A stretch of 64,000 nt of DNA, from assembly GCF_016403105.1 (NCBI RefSeq), contig NZ_CP046155.1, forward strand, positions 868,001 through 932,000, written 5' to 3'. Source of the DNA: Leptolyngbya sp. BL0902. Lineage in GTDB: Bacteria; Cyanobacteriota; Cyanobacteriia; Phormidesmidales; Phormidesmidaceae. The translations under genes and the position numbers were made by a program. Shown one piece after another: positions 1 through 9,025 of this stretch (positions are counted from its first letter, which is position 1; each line of letters starts with the position of its first letter). The notes under the pieces were generated by a model. That model made no database searches. It was not told where the DNA came from and saw only the letters and a list, made by a program, of their open reading frames with translations.

Positions 1-2
1 AA

Positions 3-284
3 GAAGCCCGTACCGCCAACTTCAAGACGGGGACGGGGGAAGTGGTCATCGTCAAGACACCGAACACGGTCTATGAAGCGGTCTATGGCGGTGGTCGTGA
101 ACGCAGCGTAACCGCCAATGCCTGTGGCTTTGCCGCCATCAACGAGAGTACGACCTACCCCTGGGCTTCCAACCCCACGATCATGATTGGTGGCACCACT
201 CACACCTTGGCAACCATGCCGGATGCGGGCTCTGAACCCCTCTGTCGCAGCGGGCAACTCTACACCCCGGCGGCGTGGCCCTAG
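3..284 (+). CDS. Secreted two-cysteine-module protein, 3' end only
   Basis: The reading frame is open from the first full codon at base 3, so the gene begins outside the window. About 93 residues are visible. They contain one copy of a module also found twice in the next gene: a region resembling FKT-GDIVVV, then NxxYE, an N-A-CGF cysteine motif, a P-rich stretch, and a closing PLCRxGxLYxPxxW before the stop. The two cysteines could pair if the domain is exported, as its neighbour is (inference). An internal GTG at 42 could start an 80-aa protein, but the similarity continues upstream of it, so I read this as a truncated view of a longer gene. Function unknown. It is followed by a strong terminator at 334-359. 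Confidence 0.6.
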   Translation, partial: EARTANFKTGTGEVVIVKTPNTVYEAVYGGGRERSVTANACGFAAINESTTYPWASNPTIMIGGTTHTLATMPDAGSEPLCRSGQLYTPAAWP

Positions 285-362: not shown

Positions 363-2189
363 ATGAAACATCTGCTCCTCTCTGCCCCGTTGCTTCTACT
401 TCTGAATGCCCCGGCGCTGGCTTCCCAGGGCCACATCTACCGAGACAGCGACGGGGCCATATCGGTCTACCGCCTAGCACCCAACGCCCAGGTGAGAATC
501 GGCATTGACACCCCACCCAGCCGTACCCTCACCTCTAATCCCTGTGGCCTCCTGGTGGTGAGCGCATCGGAGAACTACCCAACCGCCACCATTCAAGTCA
601 ATGGGGCCACCATCAACCCCGCTAGCCTACCGACACAGATCCGGCCCACCTGTCGGCAACGGAGCGGTGGCCATGGTCTTGACGAGGAACGACCTCAACA
701 CTTCAAAACCCAGGATGGCGATATTGTCGTCGTTGGCAACCCGCCCAATACCCGCTATGAAGTCACCTATCCAGGGCAGCTTCGGATTCTGAGCCGTCGC
801 GTCAATGACTGTGGCTTTCTGAGAATCCGGGAAACACAGACCATCAACTTCAACCAAAGCATCCTGCTACCCACCACCTCCGTCGAAACCTACGCCGAAT
901 TTCAGGTGAGCCAAATCCCAGAGACTCGGCCTTTGCTCTGCTATCGCGGGAACCTCTACTATCCCCAGCCTTGGGTTGATATCTTTGCCCCCGCCATCCC
1001 TGGTACTAACCTTCCGGCCACCGTAGTCAATACGACCCGTACCATCACGAGCGCCATCACCACCGCTGGGAGTGGAGGCACCACTGGGGGAAGTTCCACC
1101 GGAACAGGGGGCGGCAGTGGCTCAACGGGAGGATCTGGTACTACAGGGGGCAGTGGGAGCGGTTCTAGCGGCACGGGAGATGGATCTAGTGGAGGCTCCA
1201 CAGGCGGATCGACAGGAGGCTCCACCGATGGATCCACGGGCGGCTCCACGGGCGGCTCCACGGGCGGTTCAACAGGTGGCTCTAGCGGTGGTAGCTCTAC
1301 CGATGGATCCACGGGCGGTTCAACAGGTGGCTCTAGCGGTGGTAGCTCTACCGATGGATCCACGGGCGGTTCAACAGGTGGCTCTAGCGGTGGTAGCTCT
1401 ACCGATGGATCCACGGGCGGCTCCACGGGCGGATCGACGGGGGGTGCAGACGGCTCCACTGGGGGCTCGACGGATGGCTCTGGAGGTTCTACGGGCGGAT
1501 CCACAGATGGCTCCACGGGCGGATCTGGGGACTCCACAGGCGGGACGGGGGGCGGTTCGACGGGGGGCTCTACAGATGGCTCTGGAGGTTCTACGGGGGG
1601 CGGCTCGACAGGGGGAGGCTCCACGGGTGGGACGGGTGGCGGCACAGCGGCCATGAATGACTTCACCCTAGCCACCTATAACCCAACCATCCATGACTTC
1701 AATGGTGATGGCCAGGTAGACGACAGCAACGGCGATGGTATTCCCGATGACCGAGATGGGGATGGCTTTCCCGATGGGCCTTGGGGGCCAGGAGATATGC
1801 CCCGTTCCGCAGGGCCAGGGTTTACCGTGCCCACCAATGCCGAGGTTTGCATAGCCTACAACGGCAACATTGTGGCGTCCTCCTATGGCTTCATTCGCGG
1901 CTATAGTTACGGTCTATCCGCCGATGATGGCCTAGCCCCCATCTCCAATGACAATCCACTGTTCACTGCGGCCAATGCTGGATCGCTCTCTGGGCCTCCA
2001 GCCATCCGCTGGTCGGGGAATTTCAGACCACCCAACTTCCCCCATAGCTTTGAGGAAAGTCTACGGAATGGCTATATCTTGAGGGAATCAGACTACGGAG
2101 AAGTCACGTCCTTCTCCTTTGAAAACCTACGCTCCTGCCTAATGCCGCCCTGGCTGGCGAATCCGCCTGCTTGGATTACCTTTGATTAG
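363..2189 (+). CDS. Exported Gly/Ser/Thr-repeat protein with Ca-binding-like motif
   Basis: 608 aa. Residues 1-20 form a clear signal peptide (hydrophobic Leu run ending ALA). Residues about 24-110 and 115-212 are two copies of the cysteine module seen in the preceding partial gene (N-x-CG-F/L, then a second Cys before an aromatic tail). Residues about 235-430 are an almost pure Gly/Ser/Thr/Asp linker. Residues about 445-478 contain serial DxDxDG-type motifs (DFNGDGQVDD, NGDGIPDD, DGDGFPDG) like thrombospondin type 3 or dockerin calcium loops. The C-terminal 130 residues have one more Cys pair. The layout suggests a surface or matrix protein with a flexible stalk (inference); I recognise no named family. 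No Shine-Dalgarno is visible because the upstream terminator runs almost into the ATG. Confidence 0.75.
   Translation: MKHLLLSAPLLLLLNAPALASQGHIYRDSDGAISVYRLAPNAQVRIGIDTPPSRTLTSNPCGLLVVSASENYPTATIQVNGATINPASLPTQIRPTCRQRSGGHGLDEERPQHFKTQDGDIVVVGNPPNTRYEVTYPGQLRILSRRVNDCGFLRIRETQTINFNQSILLPTTSVETYAEFQVSQIPETRPLLCYRGNLYYPQPWVDIFAPAIPGTNLPATVVNTTRTITSAITTAGSGGTTGGSSTGTGGGSGSTGGSGTTGGSGSGSSGTGDGSSGGSTGGSTGGSTDGSTGGSTGGSTGGSTGGSSGGSSTDGSTGGSTGGSSGGSSTDGSTGGSTGGSSGGSSTDGSTGGSTGGSTGGADGSTGGSTDGSGGSTGGSTDGSTGGSGDSTGGTGGGSTGGSTDGSGGSTGGGSTGGGSTGGTGGGTAAMNDFTLATYNPTIHDFNGDGQVDDSNGDGIPDDRDGDGFPDGPWGPGDMPRSAGPGFTVPTNAEVCIAYNGNIVASSYGFIRGYSYGLSADDGLAPISNDNPLFTAANAGSLSGPPAIRWSGNFRPPNFPHSFEESLRNGYILRESDYGEVTSFSFENLRSCLMPPWLANPPAWITFD
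1260..1412 (+). repeat. Three perfect 51-bp tandem repeats
   Basis: Units at 1260-1310, 1311-1361 and 1362-1412 are identical by reading. Each encodes 17 residues of the Gly/Ser/Thr/Asp linker. Shorter imperfect 9- to 18-bp repeats of the GGSTGGST type flank it across roughly 1070-1650. A unit of 51 bp keeps frame, so copy-number change would only alter linker length. Confidence 0.9.
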
Positions 2190-2308: not shown

Positions 2309-3589
2309 CTACTCATCTTTAGGTTCTAACTCCTCATGGGAAGGTACTCTAGACACCTGATCCGCCAAGCTGGGAGCAAAGCGCTCACTAAAGCCTGCCA
2401 CAAAGGCAATCGCAGCAAAGAGATAGAGCTTTTCATTTTGTTGTCCTGGCTTCTCTAGCTCTAGAAAGCTCGAAAAGATGCCAGATTCAATCAGCGACAC
2501 CACAAAAATTGCAAAGGCCATTCCAATGAATGGTCTAAAAAAGCCAATATAGAAAGGATCTACTTTCTTTCTCTTCGTTTCATTTACAAGCTTATCTGAA
2601 GTCATAATCACACTGACTGATCCTCCTAACGCACCCATGGTAATCGCAATAAGTAGCGCTAGAATGCCTGTCATTGGGAGGGTGCCTGACTGAATGCCAA
2701 AGATTTCTAAGATAGCCTTATGAATCAATGCAACACTTTGCTTACTGGACTCACCGTTAAGGAGATTTTGAGTCGCTGTAGCAGCATGGGTATAGTCGAG
2801 TTGATTTTGAAGCGCTTTTGTGACATTGCCATCAATTTCACTAAGAATAGAGATTGGCACATTGATGGACTCTACGCTGTTTGTTTCTGATGGATTAGGA
2901 TTCTGTTCGGCCCCTTCAGCTTTTTCCACCGGAGGAAGAATCTCGTCAAGCTGAGAATCTATGTCCCTTAAGGACTGGGTCATAACGGAATTATTGGAAA
3001 TTAGGGTATTCAGATTATTTTTGATATTTTCTCCATTGACATTGTAGGTTTTTAGGGTGTAGACGACCAGAATAGAAAGTACCAGAAGTGAGGGAACCAC
3101 GAAGAACAGATTGAAGAACCAAACTGTACCTGACAGTAGCCTATCCTCTAGACTGTTATATCGTGCAAGTAAGCTGGATACTGGATTAGGGAAATGCCGA
3201 GACTGAATATCAATTTTGTGGATGATTTCTCTTGAAAATATCAGCCTTTGCCGCTTATATTTTTCTTCTTCATCTAGACCTTCTGTTAATACAATAGACG
3301 TAGTTTCAAGAATCTCTAAAAGCTCTTCTCTTGGCACAGATATATCTGCATTTCCAAATAAAGAGCTAACGGCAGAATGAAGAAAACCAGGCTTTTGGTC
3401 ATCAATATCCTTGGTTCTAGCAACCTGTGCCACTAAACCTAGAATTTGAGATAGTTCATAGGCCGTGGCTGGAGATACATGGTCAATTTTTTTATGAATT
3501 CTATCCCGAATTCTTCGTATAATTTCCTTTTCAGCAGGGCTCAGATTATGCTCAAAGCTATTGCCATGATAGCCAACTTGCTGTGTCAT
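2309..3589 (-). CDS. Four-TM membrane protein of unknown function
   Basis: 426 aa. A charged helical N-terminal domain (1-150) precedes TM1 at about 156-179. An Asn/Ser/Glu-rich loop (190-300) follows, then three more hydrophobic segments at about 305-329, 348-371 and 388-402, with a GGSVSVIM motif and a conserved-looking GFSERFAP near the end. I do not recognise a named family; the C-terminal three-helix part resembles membrane modules of bacterial signalling or stress proteins, but this is only an impression. Base composition is clearly more AT-rich than all neighbours, which fits recent acquisition. It is convergent with the 608-aa gene and has its own AT-rich upstream region (3590-3820). 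Confidence 0.65.
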   Translation of the reverse strand: MTQQVGYHGNSFEHNLSPAEKEIIRRIRDRIHKKIDHVSPATAYELSQILGLVAQVARTKDIDDQKPGFLHSAVSSLFGNADISVPREELLEILETTSIVLTEGLDEEEKYKRQRLIFSREIIHKIDIQSRHFPNPVSSLLARYNSLEDRLLSGTVWFFNLFFVVPSLLVLSILVVYTLKTYNVNGENIKNNLNTLISNNSVMTQSLRDIDSQLDEILPPVEKAEGAEQNPNPSETNSVESINVPISILSEIDGNVTKALQNQLDYTHAATATQNLLNGESSKQSVALIHKAILEIFGIQSGTLPMTGILALLIAITMGALGGSVSVIMTSDKLVNETKRKKVDPFYIGFFRPFIGMAFAIFVVSLIESGIFSSFLELEKPGQQNEKLYLFAAIAFVAGFSERFAPSLADQVSRVPSHEELEPKDE

Positions 3590-3820: not shown

Positions 3821-4834
3821 TTACTCTTCCTGCCCCAGCACCATCATCTGAATCCTAGCCAGCCGGGTTCTGAGCCTTGCCCAAGCTCGGTAGGTATCGG
3901 CCTTTTGGCGGTCTAGCTGGGAGAGATGGCCTAGGTAGGTGACGCTGTCGATGCGGCTACTGAAGCGATAGTCAATCTCTAGAATGCGGTGCTGTACCGT
4001 GGCGCGACGGGCAATCTCCTGGGAGATTTGGAACTCTCGGCGGGTAGCATCGAACTCCAGAACTTCGAGCATCACCTGTTCTCGCAAGGTTTCCGCCATC
4101 TTGCGCTTCTCCTGCTCAATCTGCGTCACCTTCACCTGGAGGTCACTAATGGCGAGGGCATTGGTCTGGGCAGCGGTATTGGTTTGGGTAATGCCGCGCA
4201 CCAGGGGAATGCCAATCAGGCTAAGGATTTCATTGATCGAGCGTAGGGGGTCGGTAAAGATGCCAAACAGGTTATTGAGGAAGCCCCGGCCCGATGATTG
4301 GTCAAACTGAAGGTAGCGGGACATCAGGGGGTCAAGGACATCCATGCGTACCGCCTGCTGGTTGAGGCTACGGGCTTCGTCGATCCGCATCTCAATGGCA
4401 TCAATGCGCTCCTGGATGATGGTGAGGGCCAAGTTATTCTCAACCGCCATGGTCTGGAGCTGGGCGATACATTCCGTGGTGGGGTCTAGGCAGGGCAAGT
4501 CTCCCATCATGGCCGCCCACAGGTCAGCATTGATCTGGGTCTGAATCAGCAGATCGAGGTTATCGCCCAAGGGATTGAGGGGATTGTCATCGAGTTGGTA
4601 GAACTCATCGGGATGGGAGATCAGGGGTTGGGTGTTGCCGCTGCCCTCATCCCCCCAGTCCTCCTCAAAGACCTCTTCCTCAAAGACTTCCTCCTCAGTC
4701 TCCTGGGCCTGGACTGGGGAGAGGCTGAATCCCAGCAGCAGGGCTAGGGCTACCGCCAATGGCCAACGTAATTTCCACCGTGAGGCGGGTGTCACTTTGG
4801 CCCAACCACTTGACCCGTCGAATCGTACCCGCAT
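3821..4834 (-). CDS. Exported coiled-coil protein, last gene of the island operon
   Basis: 337 aa. A signal peptide follows a basic stretch (hydrophobic core about residues 28-40, ending PVQAQ), then a very acidic segment (about 44-66), then long Glu/Gln/Arg-rich helices likely to form coiled coils (about 120-160 and 225-330). The ATG at 4834 has a good ribosome-binding site (AAGGAG, five bases away) but overlaps the upstream gene by 140 bases; a GTG at 4795 would give a more conventional signal peptide. Coupled to the HlyD-like gene, it may be its periplasmic partner (inference). A resemblance to conjugation (TrbI/VirB-type) envelope proteins was considered but no diagnostic motif is visible. 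Confidence 0.65.
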   Translation of the reverse strand: MRVRFDGSSGWAKVTPASRWKLRWPLAVALALLLGFSLSPVQAQETEEEVFEEEVFEEDWGDEGSGNTQPLISHPDEFYQLDDNPLNPLGDNLDLLIQTQINADLWAAMMGDLPCLDPTTECIAQLQTMAVENNLALTIIQERIDAIEMRIDEARSLNQQAVRMDVLDPLMSRYLQFDQSSGRGFLNNLFGIFTDPLRSINEILSLIGIPLVRGITQTNTAAQTNALAISDLQVKVTQIEQEKRKMAETLREQVMLEVLEFDATRREFQISQEIARRATVQHRILEIDYRFSSRIDSVTYLGHLSQLDRQKADTYRAWARLRTRLARIQMMVLGQEE

Positions 4835-5645
4835 AGGGACTCCTTACCGTTGAAAGGTCTGATAGTTTGGCGTTGATGGTTTCGATCTGGGCCTGAAGCT
4901 GGGCCTCTTGAAAGGTCTTCTCCCGGCGCTGGGCCTCGGCCTGTTGCCGCTGTTGGTTGTGGGCGAGTCGCTGCTGGTTGGCCTCCTCCGCCCGTCGCGC
5001 CATGGCCAAGGAATGTTCATACTCCTGATGGGCACGGCGTTCCTGGGCCTGCTTCAGTTCCGCCTTGGCCCGTTCGAGGTCACGATACAGCCCCTCCAAA
5101 ATCCGATCCTCATGCTCGCGCATGGCCGGGGGCACATCAGCGGGGGGCATCGTCGAGAGCAGGTCAATCTTGCGCTTCTGGAGGTCGATGCTGTCCTCAA
5201 CGGCGGCGATGGTGGCCTCTTGGGTGCCGTAGAAGACTGGGGGTAGGCCCGACACCGGGGGTACGGGTAACGGCTCTGGGGGGTCAAGTACCTGTTGGGC
5301 CTGGATGCGCTGGAGGGAAAGGGTCGTCTGGGCAAGCTGGGTCTGGAGGGCGGTACGCTCACGGGTACGGTCGGCCAACACATCCCCCACCGCTACGGTG
5401 TCCCCCTGCCGTACCTTCAGGTCATCGGGTTCACTCAGGGTTAGGGTGAAGGTCAACACCCGTGGTTGGGTACTCACCGGGGGCGTGGTGACGAGCTGCG
5501 GCGGCTCTAAATTGGGCGTAGACGCTTGGCCCTGACTCGGTTCTGTCCGCGTCAACCATAGGATGATCATTATCCCCAGAACATTCACCAACCCAAGGAA
5601 GACAAGGAAGAGGGAGCCTTCATAGGGTCGTGTGGGCTGGGTCAT
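4695..5645 (-). CDS. HlyD-like membrane-fusion protein
   Basis: 316 aa. One N-terminal transmembrane anchor (about 12-31), then a Pro/Thr-rich spacer, a half lipoyl-like motif (VRQGDTVAVGDVLAD, about 78-92), a long Gln/Glu/Arg coiled-coil hairpin (about 95-260) and a second half barrel (STVRSPYAGTIRRVKWLG). This is the classic layout of membrane-fusion/adaptor subunits of type I secretion and efflux systems, which span the periplasm. No ABC transporter or outer-membrane TolC partner lies nearby. Its start overlaps the stop of the upstream gene as ATGA (5642-5645), so translation is probably coupled. The C-terminal 45 residues overlap the start of the next gene in another frame. Confidence 0.75.
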   Translation of the reverse strand: MTQPTRPYEGSLFLVFLGLVNVLGIMIILWLTRTEPSQGQASTPNLEPPQLVTTPPVSTQPRVLTFTLTLSEPDDLKVRQGDTVAVGDVLADRTRERTALQTQLAQTTLSLQRIQAQQVLDPPEPLPVPPVSGLPPVFYGTQEATIAAVEDSIDLQKRKIDLLSTMPPADVPPAMREHEDRILEGLYRDLERAKAELKQAQERRAHQEYEHSLAMARRAEEANQQRLAHNQQRQQAEAQRREKTFQEAQLQAQIETINAKLSDLSTVRSPYAGTIRRVKWLGQSDTRLTVEITLAIGGSPSPAAGIQPLPSPGPGD

Positions 5646-6664
5646 GCCTTCACTTTGACGATGACGCTACCGTGGAGAATCCAGAACTCTTGCAGTAGAG
5701 AACGAATCTCTTGGGGATGAGCATTTTGTAACTCAATTTGGCCGCTACCCATGCGAATCGTAGGATAAGTTTCAAGATTGACCGGGGGTGGCACCTCTAG
5801 CAGGTCATCCAGCAGGAGGCTACCGCTGATGTAGGCGTTCTGGGGAACCGTGGTTAGCCATTCCGTCACCCCCACCTCTTGTAGGTTAAAGAACTGGGCC
5901 GCAACCTGCACTGGATCGCCCAGCCTTGCCTTAACTCGTATGGGGCGGATCTGAGCATCATTGCCCTGGCCAATTTTATAGAGGCGTTTGGTGGTTACGT
6001 CCTCAACAATCAGGTCACTGCTGCCTGCCTCCAGGACTTCATAGGTGCCGCTGACCGATTGGCGGGTGTGGGTGTGGATGCCCTCGATGTCGATGTAGAT
6101 CCGCTGATTGGCTCCATGCTTATGAAATAGCTCCGCTGCTGTGGCGGCGTCATTGAAGAACGTCCGGGCCACGCTCTCGGAAAGTCCCCCGGCGCTGGTG
6201 AGGTTGACGCTGATGATGGTCAAGAAGAGAGCGGTAGAGAGTACCCAATACTCAGCCGGGGAACGAGTATCGAGTCTGGCCCTAGGGTTGCCGGGAATCA
6301 CCAGCCTAGCGGGATTGGGATAGAAGGCTTCTACGCCAGACTTGGTGAAGGCATCGGCAAACCAGCCCACAAAGTAGCCCAGCACGATAGCCCCAAAGAA
6401 GGGTGGGTTAATCCACAGCAGGGGCGCGGCTAGTCCTGCCACCAGGCCCGTCGCCAGGAAGGAGTGGGTGACGGAACGATGGGGAAACCGTTGCTCTAGG
6501 AAATTGGTCAGAGGCCAAATCAAGCGACCTGAGAAGCTTTCCGTGGTGTCGATGTCGGGAAACTGGGAGGCCACCGCAGCGGTCGCTAGAACGTAGGGAT
6601 CTGCGGTACTGAGGCCGATAGCCGTAGCGGCCACCGCCAGGGCGGCATGGGTCACACTCATCAT
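5642..6664 (-). CDS. DUF457/YdjM-type membrane protein (metal-dependent hydrolase family)
   Basis: 340 aa. The N-terminal 180 residues match the YdjM/DUF457 pattern: MxxxTHAALA at the start, a DIDTTES motif (about 36-42), RSVTHSF (about 63-69) and several transmembrane helices, with conserved His and Asp that could bind a metal. The C-terminal half (about 185-340) is soluble and beta-rich with no recognised domain; it may sit in the periplasm. Members of the family are annotated as LexA-regulated, putative inner-membrane hydrolases with no proven substrate. The gene starts within an ATGA overlap with the 58-aa gene and ends in an ATGA overlap with the HlyD-like gene. Confidence 0.75.
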   Translation of the reverse strand: MMSVTHAALAVAATAIGLSTADPYVLATAAVASQFPDIDTTESFSGRLIWPLTNFLEQRFPHRSVTHSFLATGLVAGLAAPLLWINPPFFGAIVLGYFVGWFADAFTKSGVEAFYPNPARLVIPGNPRARLDTRSPAEYWVLSTALFLTIISVNLTSAGGLSESVARTFFNDAATAAELFHKHGANQRIYIDIEGIHTHTRQSVSGTYEVLEAGSSDLIVEDVTTKRLYKIGQGNDAQIRPIRVKARLGDPVQVAAQFFNLQEVGVTEWLTTVPQNAYISGSLLLDDLLEVPPPVNLETYPTIRMGSGQIELQNAHPQEIRSLLQEFWILHGSVIVKVKA

Positions 6665-6837
6665 GGCTCCACCTCCACTGGTTCTAGAAAGTAGTCTTCT
6701 GTGGTTAAGTCGCCCAAATGCTTGACCTGGCAGGTGTCGTAGAACTCCAGCCCCAGATCACTCACCTGCCATACATTCACCCATTCTTCTGGGGCTAACT
6801 GGCTAGATTCATCTCCCCCAATGCCTCGAATCCTCAT
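6661..6837 (-). CDS. 58-aa conserved-context small protein
   Basis: A short acidic protein beginning MRIRGIGGDE and ending EPVEVEP. Its ATG (6837-6835) overlaps the stop of the ATPase gene as ATGA, and its stop (6663-6661) overlaps the start of the DUF457 gene as ATGA. This double translational coupling is the main evidence that it is a real gene. It has a W-V-x-V-W-Q and LEFYDTCQ pattern and no membrane segment. Function unknown; a small accessory subunit of the operon's complex is an inference. Confidence 0.65.
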   Translation of the reverse strand: MRIRGIGGDESSQLAPEEWVNVWQVSDLGLEFYDTCQVKHLGDLTTEDYFLEPVEVEP

Positions 6838-7727
6838 CGTCCTAACCTCGTACTCTTGCGGTTAATCGAATAGAACAACGTCCTCAAGGTCAGAGCTAGC
6901 AGCGTGGCCACCCCACCGACGATGTAGAGGGCTTTGTCCCCTAGGCCAATGCCAATGAACCGGACAATGCCAATGGCACTGAGGCTGGCAACCAGGAAGG
7001 GGGTGCCGTCGATGTACTGCCGATGGTCGGTACTCATCTCTTCACCAATGCCCAACAATTCCTCATGCACCACCCGTTTCGCCAGGGCTGGATTGCCCCC
7101 CACCCGCTGCTGTAGGTCAGCAAATTTGGCGGGGTTGATCGCCATGCCTTGAGCGGTGGCTTCGGCATACATGAGGGTGCGGATCTGGTCAGGGGTCAAG
7201 GGTTCTAGCTCCATCCGAGGCAGCTTCAAGAAGACATCCCTTGCCGGAGGCCGATCCGCCAGCAGCAGCAGCAGCCCCTTCCCCCGTAGCAACTCCTCCA
7301 TCCAGTAGCGCAAGGATGCGGGCCACCGATGGGCATCATCGGCAATCAGCAGCCGTCGGCCACCGTTCATGTCCTGGGCAATCTCCACCCGCAGTTGGTC
7401 AGCGGTCAAGGGCTTAGGTCGGTCATCGGCGGTTTCTGTGGGAACACCCAAGGCTTCGGCAATGGCAATCAGGGTTTGCTTGGCACTGCCAGAGTAGGAC
7501 GCCACCGCAATGCGGTACTCAGACCCCAGACGATGCCTCACCTCCAGACCAAGGACGCTCTTACCGCTGCCCGATTCTCCCAACACCAGAATGGACTGTC
7601 CCTTCAGGAGCGAGTTAATCACCTGGGCAATGTCGTCCTCACGAAACTCCACCACCAGGGCATTGCCGTCCCGGATGGGGGGCTTGGGCGTCCCTAGGCG
7701 GCTTGAGTCCCGCGTTGACTGCGCCAC
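6834..7727 (-). CDS. AAA ATPase with C-terminal membrane segments
   Basis: 297 aa. Walker A GESGSGKS at about residues 50-57, Walker B LLIADDAH at about 130-137, and a sensor-like LLLADRPP segment near 155-162, as in ExeA/AAA_22-type ATPases. A helical lid (PLTPDQIRTLMYAEA) follows. The last 60 residues hold two hydrophobic segments (about 238-255 and 262-283), so the ATPase is membrane-tethered. This argues against a TniB/TnsC transposition regulator, which is soluble. It overlaps the end of the upstream gene by 34 bases and is coupled to the 58-aa gene. Probably the energy-providing part of the operon's product (inference). Confidence 0.7.
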   Translation of the reverse strand: MAQSTRDSSRLGTPKPPIRDGNALVVEFREDDIAQVINSLLKGQSILVLGESGSGKSVLGLEVRHRLGSEYRIAVASYSGSAKQTLIAIAEALGVPTETADDRPKPLTADQLRVEIAQDMNGGRRLLIADDAHRWPASLRYWMEELLRGKGLLLLLADRPPARDVFLKLPRMELEPLTPDQIRTLMYAEATAQGMAINPAKFADLQQRVGGNPALAKRVVHEELLGIGEEMSTDHRQYIDGTPFLVASLSAIGIVRFIGIGLGDKALYIVGGVATLLALTLRTLFYSINRKSTRLGR

Positions 7728-8272
7728 TGCTGCATGATCCGGTTGGCGATCTCGGCGGGGTTGGATTTTGGGTGGGTAGCCTCCCGCACCCCCTGCACCT
7801 TGCTCTGTAGCTCCGGCGTTAGGTCGTCAAAGGTCATCTGCTGGGCCAACTGCGCCACCACCAGGTCGCCCATGGCCATGTGGTGAGCGGCTAACTCCTG
7901 GGCCTGACGAATCAGATGCTCTAGCTGAGAGGGGTCGGTACTGTCCGCTGGACTGTCCTGCGACCAGGGCGCACCACTGCTGCCTAGGCCCGACTCTTCA
8001 GCGGTGGCTAGCGCCGTTTCCTCAAAGCCCTCAATTCTGCCCGTCTCTTGTACGTGGGATCGTAGCGCCCGAATCCGATCCGCCTGGTCTGGCTCTAGGT
8101 ACGCCTTGCCGTCACCGTCCCGCTGGGCCTTGATGTCGAGGTGCTTCAGGTAGGCATAGTAGGCGTCCTTCTTGATGCCCAATTCCTCCATCAGGTCATC
8201 GGGCCGCACCTGGCACTCGATCACCGCATTCTGGTCAGGCGGGATATCCGGGGCCGAAATCGGGTCTGACAT
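7694..8272 (-). CDS. Putative DNA-binding/regulatory protein, first gene of the island operon
   Basis: 192 aa. Residues about 22-72 (DLMEELGIKKDAYYAYLKHLDIKAQR, then LEPDQADRIRALRSHV) read like a short helix-turn-helix of the MerR/excisionase kind that reads a recognition helix followed by a wing. The middle is Ser/Asp/Glu-rich and probably disordered; the C-terminal 75 residues are helical (LEHLIRQAQELAAHHMAMGD). No enzymatic motif is visible. It is the first gene after an AT-rich promoter region with a direct repeat (8291-8317), so autoregulation is possible. It could instead be a scaffold for the ATPase. Confidence in the gene is good, in the function low. Confidence 0.6.
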   Translation of the reverse strand: MSDPISAPDIPPDQNAVIECQVRPDDLMEELGIKKDAYYAYLKHLDIKAQRDGDGKAYLEPDQADRIRALRSHVQETGRIEGFEETALATAEESGLGSSGAPWSQDSPADSTDPSQLEHLIRQAQELAAHHMAMGDLVVAQLAQQMTFDDLTPELQSKVQGVREATHPKSNPAEIANRIMQQWRSQRGTQAA

Positions 8273-8401: not shown

Positions 8402-9025
8402 TTGTTTCTGGACGAACTCACCGAGTTTAAGCGCGACGTGCTGGAATTTCTGCGCCAGCCCCTAGAAGACGGCTACGTCACCATCACCCGCACCCGGCAA
8501 TCCGTCGTATTTCCAGCCCAGTTTACCCTGATTGCCAGCACCAATCCCTGCCCCTGTGGCTTCTATGGCGACTCTGTGCAGCCCTGCACCTGCACCCCTC
8601 GCAGCCGCGAAAGCTACTGGTCTCGGCTATCGGGGCCGCTGATGGATCGCATTGACCTGCAAGTGGTGGTCAGCCGCATCAAGCCGGAAGAAATGACCCA
8701 GCACCAGCCCGGAGAAGCCTCGGAGGTGGTGCGAGATCGGGTGCAGCAGGCCCGTCAACGCGCCCACGACCGCTTCAAGGCCGAACCCAAGCTGCAATGC
8801 AACGCCGATATGCAAAGCCGCCACCTCAAAGACTGGTGCCCCCTCGACGACCCCAGCCGCACCCTACTGGAAGGCGCGGTGCGTAAACTGGGCCTCTCCG
8901 CCCGCGCCACCGACCGCATCCTCAAGGTAGGGCGCACCATTGCTGACCTGGACGGAGCCGAACACTTGCAAACCCACCACATTGCCGAGGCGATTCAGTA
9001 CCGCACCATTGACCGAATGCAGTAG
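8402..9025 (+). pseudogene. comM: comM/yifB Mg-chelatase-like ATPase, 3' fragment
   Basis: 207 residues equal to the C-terminal part of ComM/YifB (full proteins are about 500 aa). It starts inside the Walker B motif (LFLDEL), continues with TEFKRDVLEFLRQPLEDG, the ASTNPCPCGFYGD cysteine loop, MDRIDL and the C-terminal Mg-chelatase domain ending RTIDRMQ. The N-terminal protease-like domain and Walker A are missing. ComM is a hexameric helicase that promotes branch migration in natural transformation. The only in-frame start is a TTG without a ribosome-binding site, so this is a disrupted gene. The 5' half would be expected beyond the left edge of the window on the far side of the island. Confidence 0.9.

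Follow-up and report, generated by a model that had tools for sequence, protein, structure and literature searches.

We analysed a 64,000-nucleotide stretch of Leptolyngbya sp. BL0902 DNA (contig C1, positions 868001 to 932000; hereafter the window) and found that six minus-strand genes at 3821-8272 form an operon that is conserved as a module on plasmids and integrative elements. The module probably specifies a hitherto undescribed apparatus that is borne by mobile elements and spans the diderm cell envelope. Our favoured explanation is that this apparatus donates DNA, and we give that explanation as a whole a probability of about 0.45. The first-pass annotation of the window had suggested that the genes encode an undescribed membrane system, which might be a machine for secretion or for DNA transfer, a proposal to be dropped if the genes did not co-occur elsewhere or matched a known secretion system completely. 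We observed that they co-occur in many genomes and that no known secretion system was matched. The adaptor, the TolC/OEP-type partner and a gene fusion in Thermus support envelope spanning well, while DNA transfer is suggested only. We found no description of the module in the open literature on transjugation, comM islands, plasmid transfer in cyanobacteria, DUF457/YdjM and the genes of pSYSX (subscription papers and preprints lay outside this search).

The six genes and their products

The open reading frame (ORF) coordinates bore out the first-pass observation that every neighbouring pair is joined by an ATGA or a longer overlap. From upstream to downstream, the overlaps are 34 nt (7694-7727), 4 nt (6834-6837), 4 nt (6661-6664), 4 nt (5642-5645) and 140 nt (4695-4834); the last would shrink to about 100 nt if gene 6 in fact begins at an internal GTG. 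When compared with the same operon in a related species, five genes gave dN/dS values of 0.07-0.19. These values indicate purifying selection, and chance ORFs were rejected on this ground. Only AAA_22 and YdjM/DUF457 were significant Pfam matches when the six proteins were examined alone, the other four having none, and PADLOC found no defence match in the operon.

Gene 2 (6834..7727, minus strand) encodes a 297-aa AAA_22 ATPase (Pfam E-value 4.4e-11) and gene 4 (5642..6664, minus strand) a 340-aa DUF457/YdjM membrane protein with a C-terminal domain (YdjM, 2.4e-23), as had been annotated. The ATPase has an intact Walker A motif and ends in a transmembrane hairpin, with hydrophobic segments at about residues 244-262 and 267-285 by hydropathy. 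The hairpin motif R[FY]xGxGxGdxxLYxxGG is kept across phyla. The protein also weakly matched a phage DNA transposition family (6.4e-10); searching phages with it gave no match, and a PDB profile search with its alignment gave generic P-loop matches only. All 31 DUF457 sequences compared share the residues H6, P36, D37, D39, H62, R63, H67 and D104, and the member from Thermus shows additional similarity to Zn-dependent phospholipase C (2.8e-5), so that DUF457 may be a metalloenzyme. We found no established function for DUF457 in the literature and nothing useful in a PDB profile search with its alignment. Viral contigs gave two partial DUF457 matches.

Gene 5 (4695..5645, minus strand) encodes the predicted HlyD-type periplasmic adaptor, with one N-terminal transmembrane segment (residues 11-29). 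The window protein alone is weakly HlyD-like (Biotin_lipoyl_2, 0.02; NCBIfam RND_mfp, 1.1e-4), but the HlyD-like character annotated earlier emerges in the family: at E ≤ 0.01, 16 of 25 members matched NHLM_micro_HlyD and 10 of 25 type_I_hlyD, matches that lie below the curated cut-offs for single proteins. In an hhalign comparison, the family profile also matched a C-terminal extension found in the DUF457 protein of Thermus (E 7e-9), and this fusion argues for a physical partnership of DUF457 and the adaptor.

Gene 6 (3821..4834, minus strand) encodes an exported coiled-coil protein that appears to carry a single OEP/TolC-type repeat, hence half-TolC. Four of 22 cyanobacterial family members matched OEP (PF02321) at E ≤ 0.01, the best at 5.6e-7 in the alignment. 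Tolypothrix (1.5e-6) and Thermus (3.6e-13, 4.9e-12) proteins exceeded the cut-off, and the Thermus match at 3.6e-13 spans one complete OEP repeat. The AlphaFold model of gene 6 consists of a long helix, a break, a long helix and a short helix, with pLDDT above 80 in the C-terminal helices and low values in the rest; this layout, in a low-confidence model, would be that of one TolC half. PDB profile searches with the adaptor and TolC-like alignments gave nothing useful.

The remaining two genes are less well defined. Gene 1 (7694..8272, minus strand; 192 aa) is the conserved first gene of the module at many loci and is split in two in pSYSX. It has no Pfam match, and the DNA binding ascribed to it earlier is suggested by a putative helix-turn-helix at its N-terminus. 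Gene 3 (6661..6837, minus strand; 58 aa) has homologues of 48-81% identity at the same position in relatives (L035, L036 and L038) and is absent in another (L033), which indicates that it is a real, optional component, not universal in the module.

Distribution of the module on mobile DNA

In cyanobacteria the module runs in the order DNA-binding protein, AAA ATPase, (58-aa protein), DUF457, (TrwB-like ATPase), HlyD-type adaptor and TolC-like protein, the components in brackets being optional, and this arrangement persists where identity has fallen to about 35%. Synechocystis PCC 6803 carries the module on pSYSX, in which tblastn placed the AAA, DUF457, DUF87, adaptor and half-TolC genes at two sites. 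It is also present on plasmids of Anabaena, Tolypothrix, Nostoc, Calothrix, Stanieria, Gloeocapsa, Microcystis, S. elongatus and Picosynechococcus. Location on a plasmid or an integrative element is the rule. In an even draw of cyanobacteria, DUF457 was found in 27 of 386 genomes and 18 of 143 genera, a patchy spread as expected of mobile DNA. As an independent test, we examined 20 of these loci, which had been chosen on DUF457 alone. The adaptor lay within 20 kb in 18 of them and the AAA ATPase in about 16-17; over the same distance, a TrwB-like gene accompanied DUF457 at about 15 or more loci and a TolC-like gene at about 13-15, counts that shift by one or two with the treatment of broken or split genes. 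HMMs of the five universal core proteins, namely the HTH, AAA, DUF457, HlyD and coiled-coil proteins, and of DUF87 matched nothing in 82 kb of background. One genome (G029) has several module copies on the chromosome and probable plasmids (C3, C4 and C5), one of them broken.

The link to other phyla rests on tblastn, which reached plasmids of Methylobacter, Allochromatium, Nitrosococcus and Thermus when DUF457 and the AAA ATPase were used as queries. Two hhalign comparisons were circular, their alignments having members in common, and were set aside. Desulfocapsa, a Fusobacteria isolate and Haliscomenobacter likewise have the two genes next to each other. Beyond Cyanobacteriota, plasmids of five other phyla carry the core, that is, AAA and DUF457 with the adaptor fused to DUF457 or a half-TolC gene adjacent, and all six phyla with the module have two membranes. 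In Thermus, the AAA and DUF457 genes flank a gene of the TolC family. A gene for a small exported protein lies 5' of the AAA gene in Methylobacter, Allochromatium, Nitrosococcus watsonii, Desulfocapsa and the Fusobacteria isolate; the last of these proteins matched OEP (1.8e-4), and the TolC likeness of the others comes from inspection of alignments. In Haliscomenobacter the AAA protein is fused to the catalytic domain of a tyrosine recombinase (Phage_integrase, 9.9e-32). Desulfocapsa has a recombinase gene that overlaps the gene for the small exported protein 5' of the AAA-DUF457 pair. Together, these comparisons indicate that the hairpin AAA protein and DUF457 are kept together, that the adaptor is linked to DUF457, and that a half-TolC is encoded alongside.

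The module is kept on plasmids down to 19 kb, and genes for ParA and ParB often adjoin it. Plasmids matched by the AAA, TolC-like or TrwB-like protein were nearly all typed non-mobilizable, while 9 of the 75 matched by DUF457 were typed conjugative. The TrwB-like gene of relatives exceeded the TrwB_AAD_bind cut-off (2.3e-10 and 3e-7). Two such genes (L064:9996-11411 and L057:21698-23158) carry a GIY-YIG domain inside the ATPase domain. In our own genome plus 17 complete module plasmids, a VirB4-type ATPase (PF03135) was found in 0 of 18. The relaxase search covered the families PF03432 and PF08751, and positive controls were detected for both of these as well as for VirB4. No MOBP relaxase (PF03432) exceeded the cut-off on the 17 plasmids, own-genome matches being on other contigs, and no MOBF relaxase/TrwC (PF08751) was found on these plasmids.

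An integrative element in comM

The first gene of the operon directly adjoins a truncated copy of comM/yifB, a natural-transformation gene. The C-terminal half of comM lies at 8402..9025 on the plus strand (Mg_chelatase, 5.1e-39; Mg_chelatase_C, 1.5e-33), and the N-terminal half, at C1:828006-828899, ends 47.5 kb away. Each junction holds a copy of a 9-bp direct repeat, TTGTTTCTG, located where comM encodes the Walker B strand; this repeat is the longest match between the junctions, with the right-end core at 8402..8410 (plus strand) and the second copy at C1:828882-828890. A gene for a large serine recombinase (Resolvase, 4.1e-33; Recombinase, 4.2e-8) is located at the left end. This comM stretch is intact in 24 of the 27 genomes of the genus that have it. 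The three in which it is interrupted (our own, G000, together with G002 and G025) are those with the operon adjoining comM, and G002 has a colinear element of about 61 kb whose left-end recombinase is 88% identical. The end recombinase, the direct core repeats and the disrupted target with intact relatives identify, at the sequence level, a serine-recombinase integrative element of ~47.5 kb with the operon at its right end. The operon is therefore cargo or backbone of this element. If the 9-bp repeats recombined, the comM reading frame would be restored, as happens with the programmed interruption elements of cyanobacteria.

The genes for EXP1 and EXP2 are part of the conserved neighbourhood of the operon. 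EXP2 (363..2189, plus strand) is an associated component, an exported protein convergent with the operon and without a Pfam match. A long part of it is rich in Gly, Ser and Thr, acidic DxNxDG-type repeats lie towards its end, and it looks like a surface protein. EXP1, a paired exported protein of 211 aa, has its 3' end at 1..284 (full gene C1:867649-868284, plus strand). The EXP2 family is convergent to gene 6 at most complete cyanobacterial loci, and an EXP1 homologue is convergent to the operon in pSYSX. In unrelated cyanobacteria, the TolC-like gene is followed by genes for convergent exported proteins and often by one for a thermonuclease (SNase), and thermonuclease genes are near the module in Cyanobacteriota, Thermus and Fusobacteriota. 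A 426-aa membrane protein downstream of the operon (2309..3589, minus strand) is shared with the nearest element only (56%, L033) and is probably a passenger.

The element also carries a type I CRISPR-Cas locus (C1:854999-867068) with a Cas4-Cas1 fusion, Cas3, a DevR-type Cas7 and a long repeat array, and an ArdC-type anti-restriction protein (C1:839290-840432). A UvrD-type helicase gene (C1:834843-837311) has an intein-like insertion (Intein_splicing, 7.8e-4). A short tyrosine recombinase comprising the catalytic domain only is encoded at C1:851492-852100; comparable recombinases were found close to the module at 10 of 62 loci. A weak DUF87 match in the island was a GIY-YIG insert and not an ATPase.

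Possible functions and comparison with known systems

We propose that the AAA protein and DUF457 would form an inner-membrane base, that the adaptor would bridge the periplasm, and that half-TolC subunits would form the outer channel. The subunits would probably number six, since TolC consists of three two-repeat chains. The DNA-binding protein, or a tyrosine recombinase in other phyla, may bring the DNA of the element to the base, and the machine would export this DNA, often with a TrwB/VirD4-like ATPase. Exported nucleases may help processing, and exported surface proteins perhaps help contact. Overall, this would be DNA donation that needs neither a relaxase nor VirB4. DNA is suggested as the substrate because a DNA-binding protein, a TrwB-like ATPase and a recombinase are joined to the module in different lineages, with nucleases nearby. 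We consider the DNA-export step slightly short of an even chance. We suggest more tentatively a new class of DNA-export machine, with an AAA/DUF457 base, an HlyD-type adaptor and a half-TolC, that spreads non-mobilizable-looking plasmids in at least six diderm phyla in the absence of a relaxase or type IV secretion.

Several observations weigh against this explanation. The TrwB-like ATPase is absent from the operon and from the whole of our own genome, while the same query found it in two positive genomes. In Synechocystis, the transfer of small plasmids other than pSYSX was by DNase-sensitive natural transformation (PMC10667661). The gene 6 protein of the window has no OEP match of its own, so that the exported coiled-coil protein annotated earlier is TolC-like through its relatives, and the cyanobacterial half-TolC profile aligns weakly with that of the others (E 0.086). 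The AlphaFold models of gene 6 and DUF457 were poor (mean pLDDT 57 and 50; five sequences), and PDB fold searches with them gave no match at E ≤ 0.001. Six of the 27 AAA proteins in the alignment no longer have a P-loop (L043-L047 and L070), and the genomes concerned mostly have no close TrwB-like gene (for L070, two near relatives were searched instead). Some systems therefore show no recognisable motor, and would have another energy source or another job. The motor role annotated earlier for the AAA protein is consistent with the intact Walker A in the window, but is weakened by these losses. In the same six proteins the membrane hairpin is intact, and they are still kept in the operon.

An exporter of proteins or small molecules is a rather unlikely alternative, although the most probable of the rivals. 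Here the adaptor and half-TolC would be a type-I-like conduit for EXP1/EXP2, a nuclease or a DUF457 product, powered or regulated by the AAA protein, and the DNA-binding protein would be a regulator only. Efflux and type I secretion are the usual job of the HlyD and OEP families, EXP1/EXP2 and SNase are frequent neighbours, and the metal-site-like residues of DUF457 are invariant while the AAA P-loop is not. However, the module has no ABC, RND or MFS transporter gene; EXP1, EXP2 and SNase have apparent signal peptides of their own (by inspection); and the TrwB-like ATPase and the recombinase fusion are left unexplained.

We also considered a membrane anchor for plasmid maintenance, in which the AAA protein and the DNA-binding protein or recombinase would tether the replicon for partition or dimer resolution, as in FtsK-XerCD. 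The AAA-tyrosine recombinase fusion, the occurrence of a short tyrosine recombinase within 20 kb at 10 of 62 loci and the often adjacent ParA/ParB genes fit such an anchor. It would need neither the adaptor nor the TolC-like protein, both of which are retained in several phyla, and partition is already served by ParAB; we regard it as improbable. Least probable is a barrier in which a surface apparatus and exported nucleases shut out competing DNA (exclusion or anti-transformation), which would fit the insertion exactly in comM and the exported nucleases near the module in three phyla, but nucleases need no such channel, and the comM insertion occurs in three close relatives only, most module carriers being plasmids.

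The donation of DNA, if it occurs, would bear on how plasmids typed as non-mobilizable, which are widely shared and whose route of spread is an open question, come to move; the module is an envelope system shared among them. Since its carriers include small plasmids of Thermus and a laboratory standard, the Synechocystis PCC 6803 plasmid pSYSX, the question is approachable by gene deletion.

Among known systems, type IV secretion and conjugation share with the module a TrwB/VirD4-like ATPase in many relatives, the plasmid location and a DNA-binding partner. In contrast, the 17 module plasmids have no VirB4 and no MOBP/MOBF relaxase, and our own genome has no TrwB-like gene; a canonical type IV system was rejected. 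Thermus transjugation (TdtA, ICETh1; PMC5365140, PMC7767461) is likewise encoded by a mobile element, with the idea of a HerA/FtsK-family ATPase, naturally competent hosts and no relaxase. Its tdtA operon encodes a restriction enzyme, NurA, TdtA and a methylase (PMC5365140), but no DUF457, adaptor or TolC gene, and the Thermus module sits on other plasmids. The operon of TdtA, NurA and restriction enzyme was absent from the window operon and from the annotated Thermus module plasmids.

TniB/TnsC/MuB and GspA-type proteins share the AAA_22 fold, whereas gene 2 differs by its conserved C-terminal transmembrane hairpin. No TniA/TnsB transposase or TniQ was matched among the operon proteins, and the end recombinase is of the Resolvase plus Recombinase type; we therefore rejected a Tn7/Tn5053-like transposon. 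AbaR-type islands are also inserted in comM and integrate by tni transposition genes, whereas the element here uses a large serine recombinase and a 9-bp core.

The tripartite HlyD/TolC exporters (type I secretion, RND and MacAB) have in common with the module an adaptor with lipoyl halves and a coiled-coil hairpin, and an OEP-type partner. The module differs in its base of AAA and DUF457, in having one OEP repeat and not two, and in being borne by mobile elements. No ABC, RND or MFS transporter was found by Pfam among the operon proteins or in the module at annotated plasmid loci, so a canonical type I system was rejected in spite of the HlyD-type adaptor. The Pfam scans of the operon proteins and the PF03135 search also confirmed the lack of an ABC transporter, VirB4 and transposase that the first-pass annotation had noted. 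Even if the module were a protein exporter, it would be a tripartite conduit centred on DUF457 that works without a known transporter.

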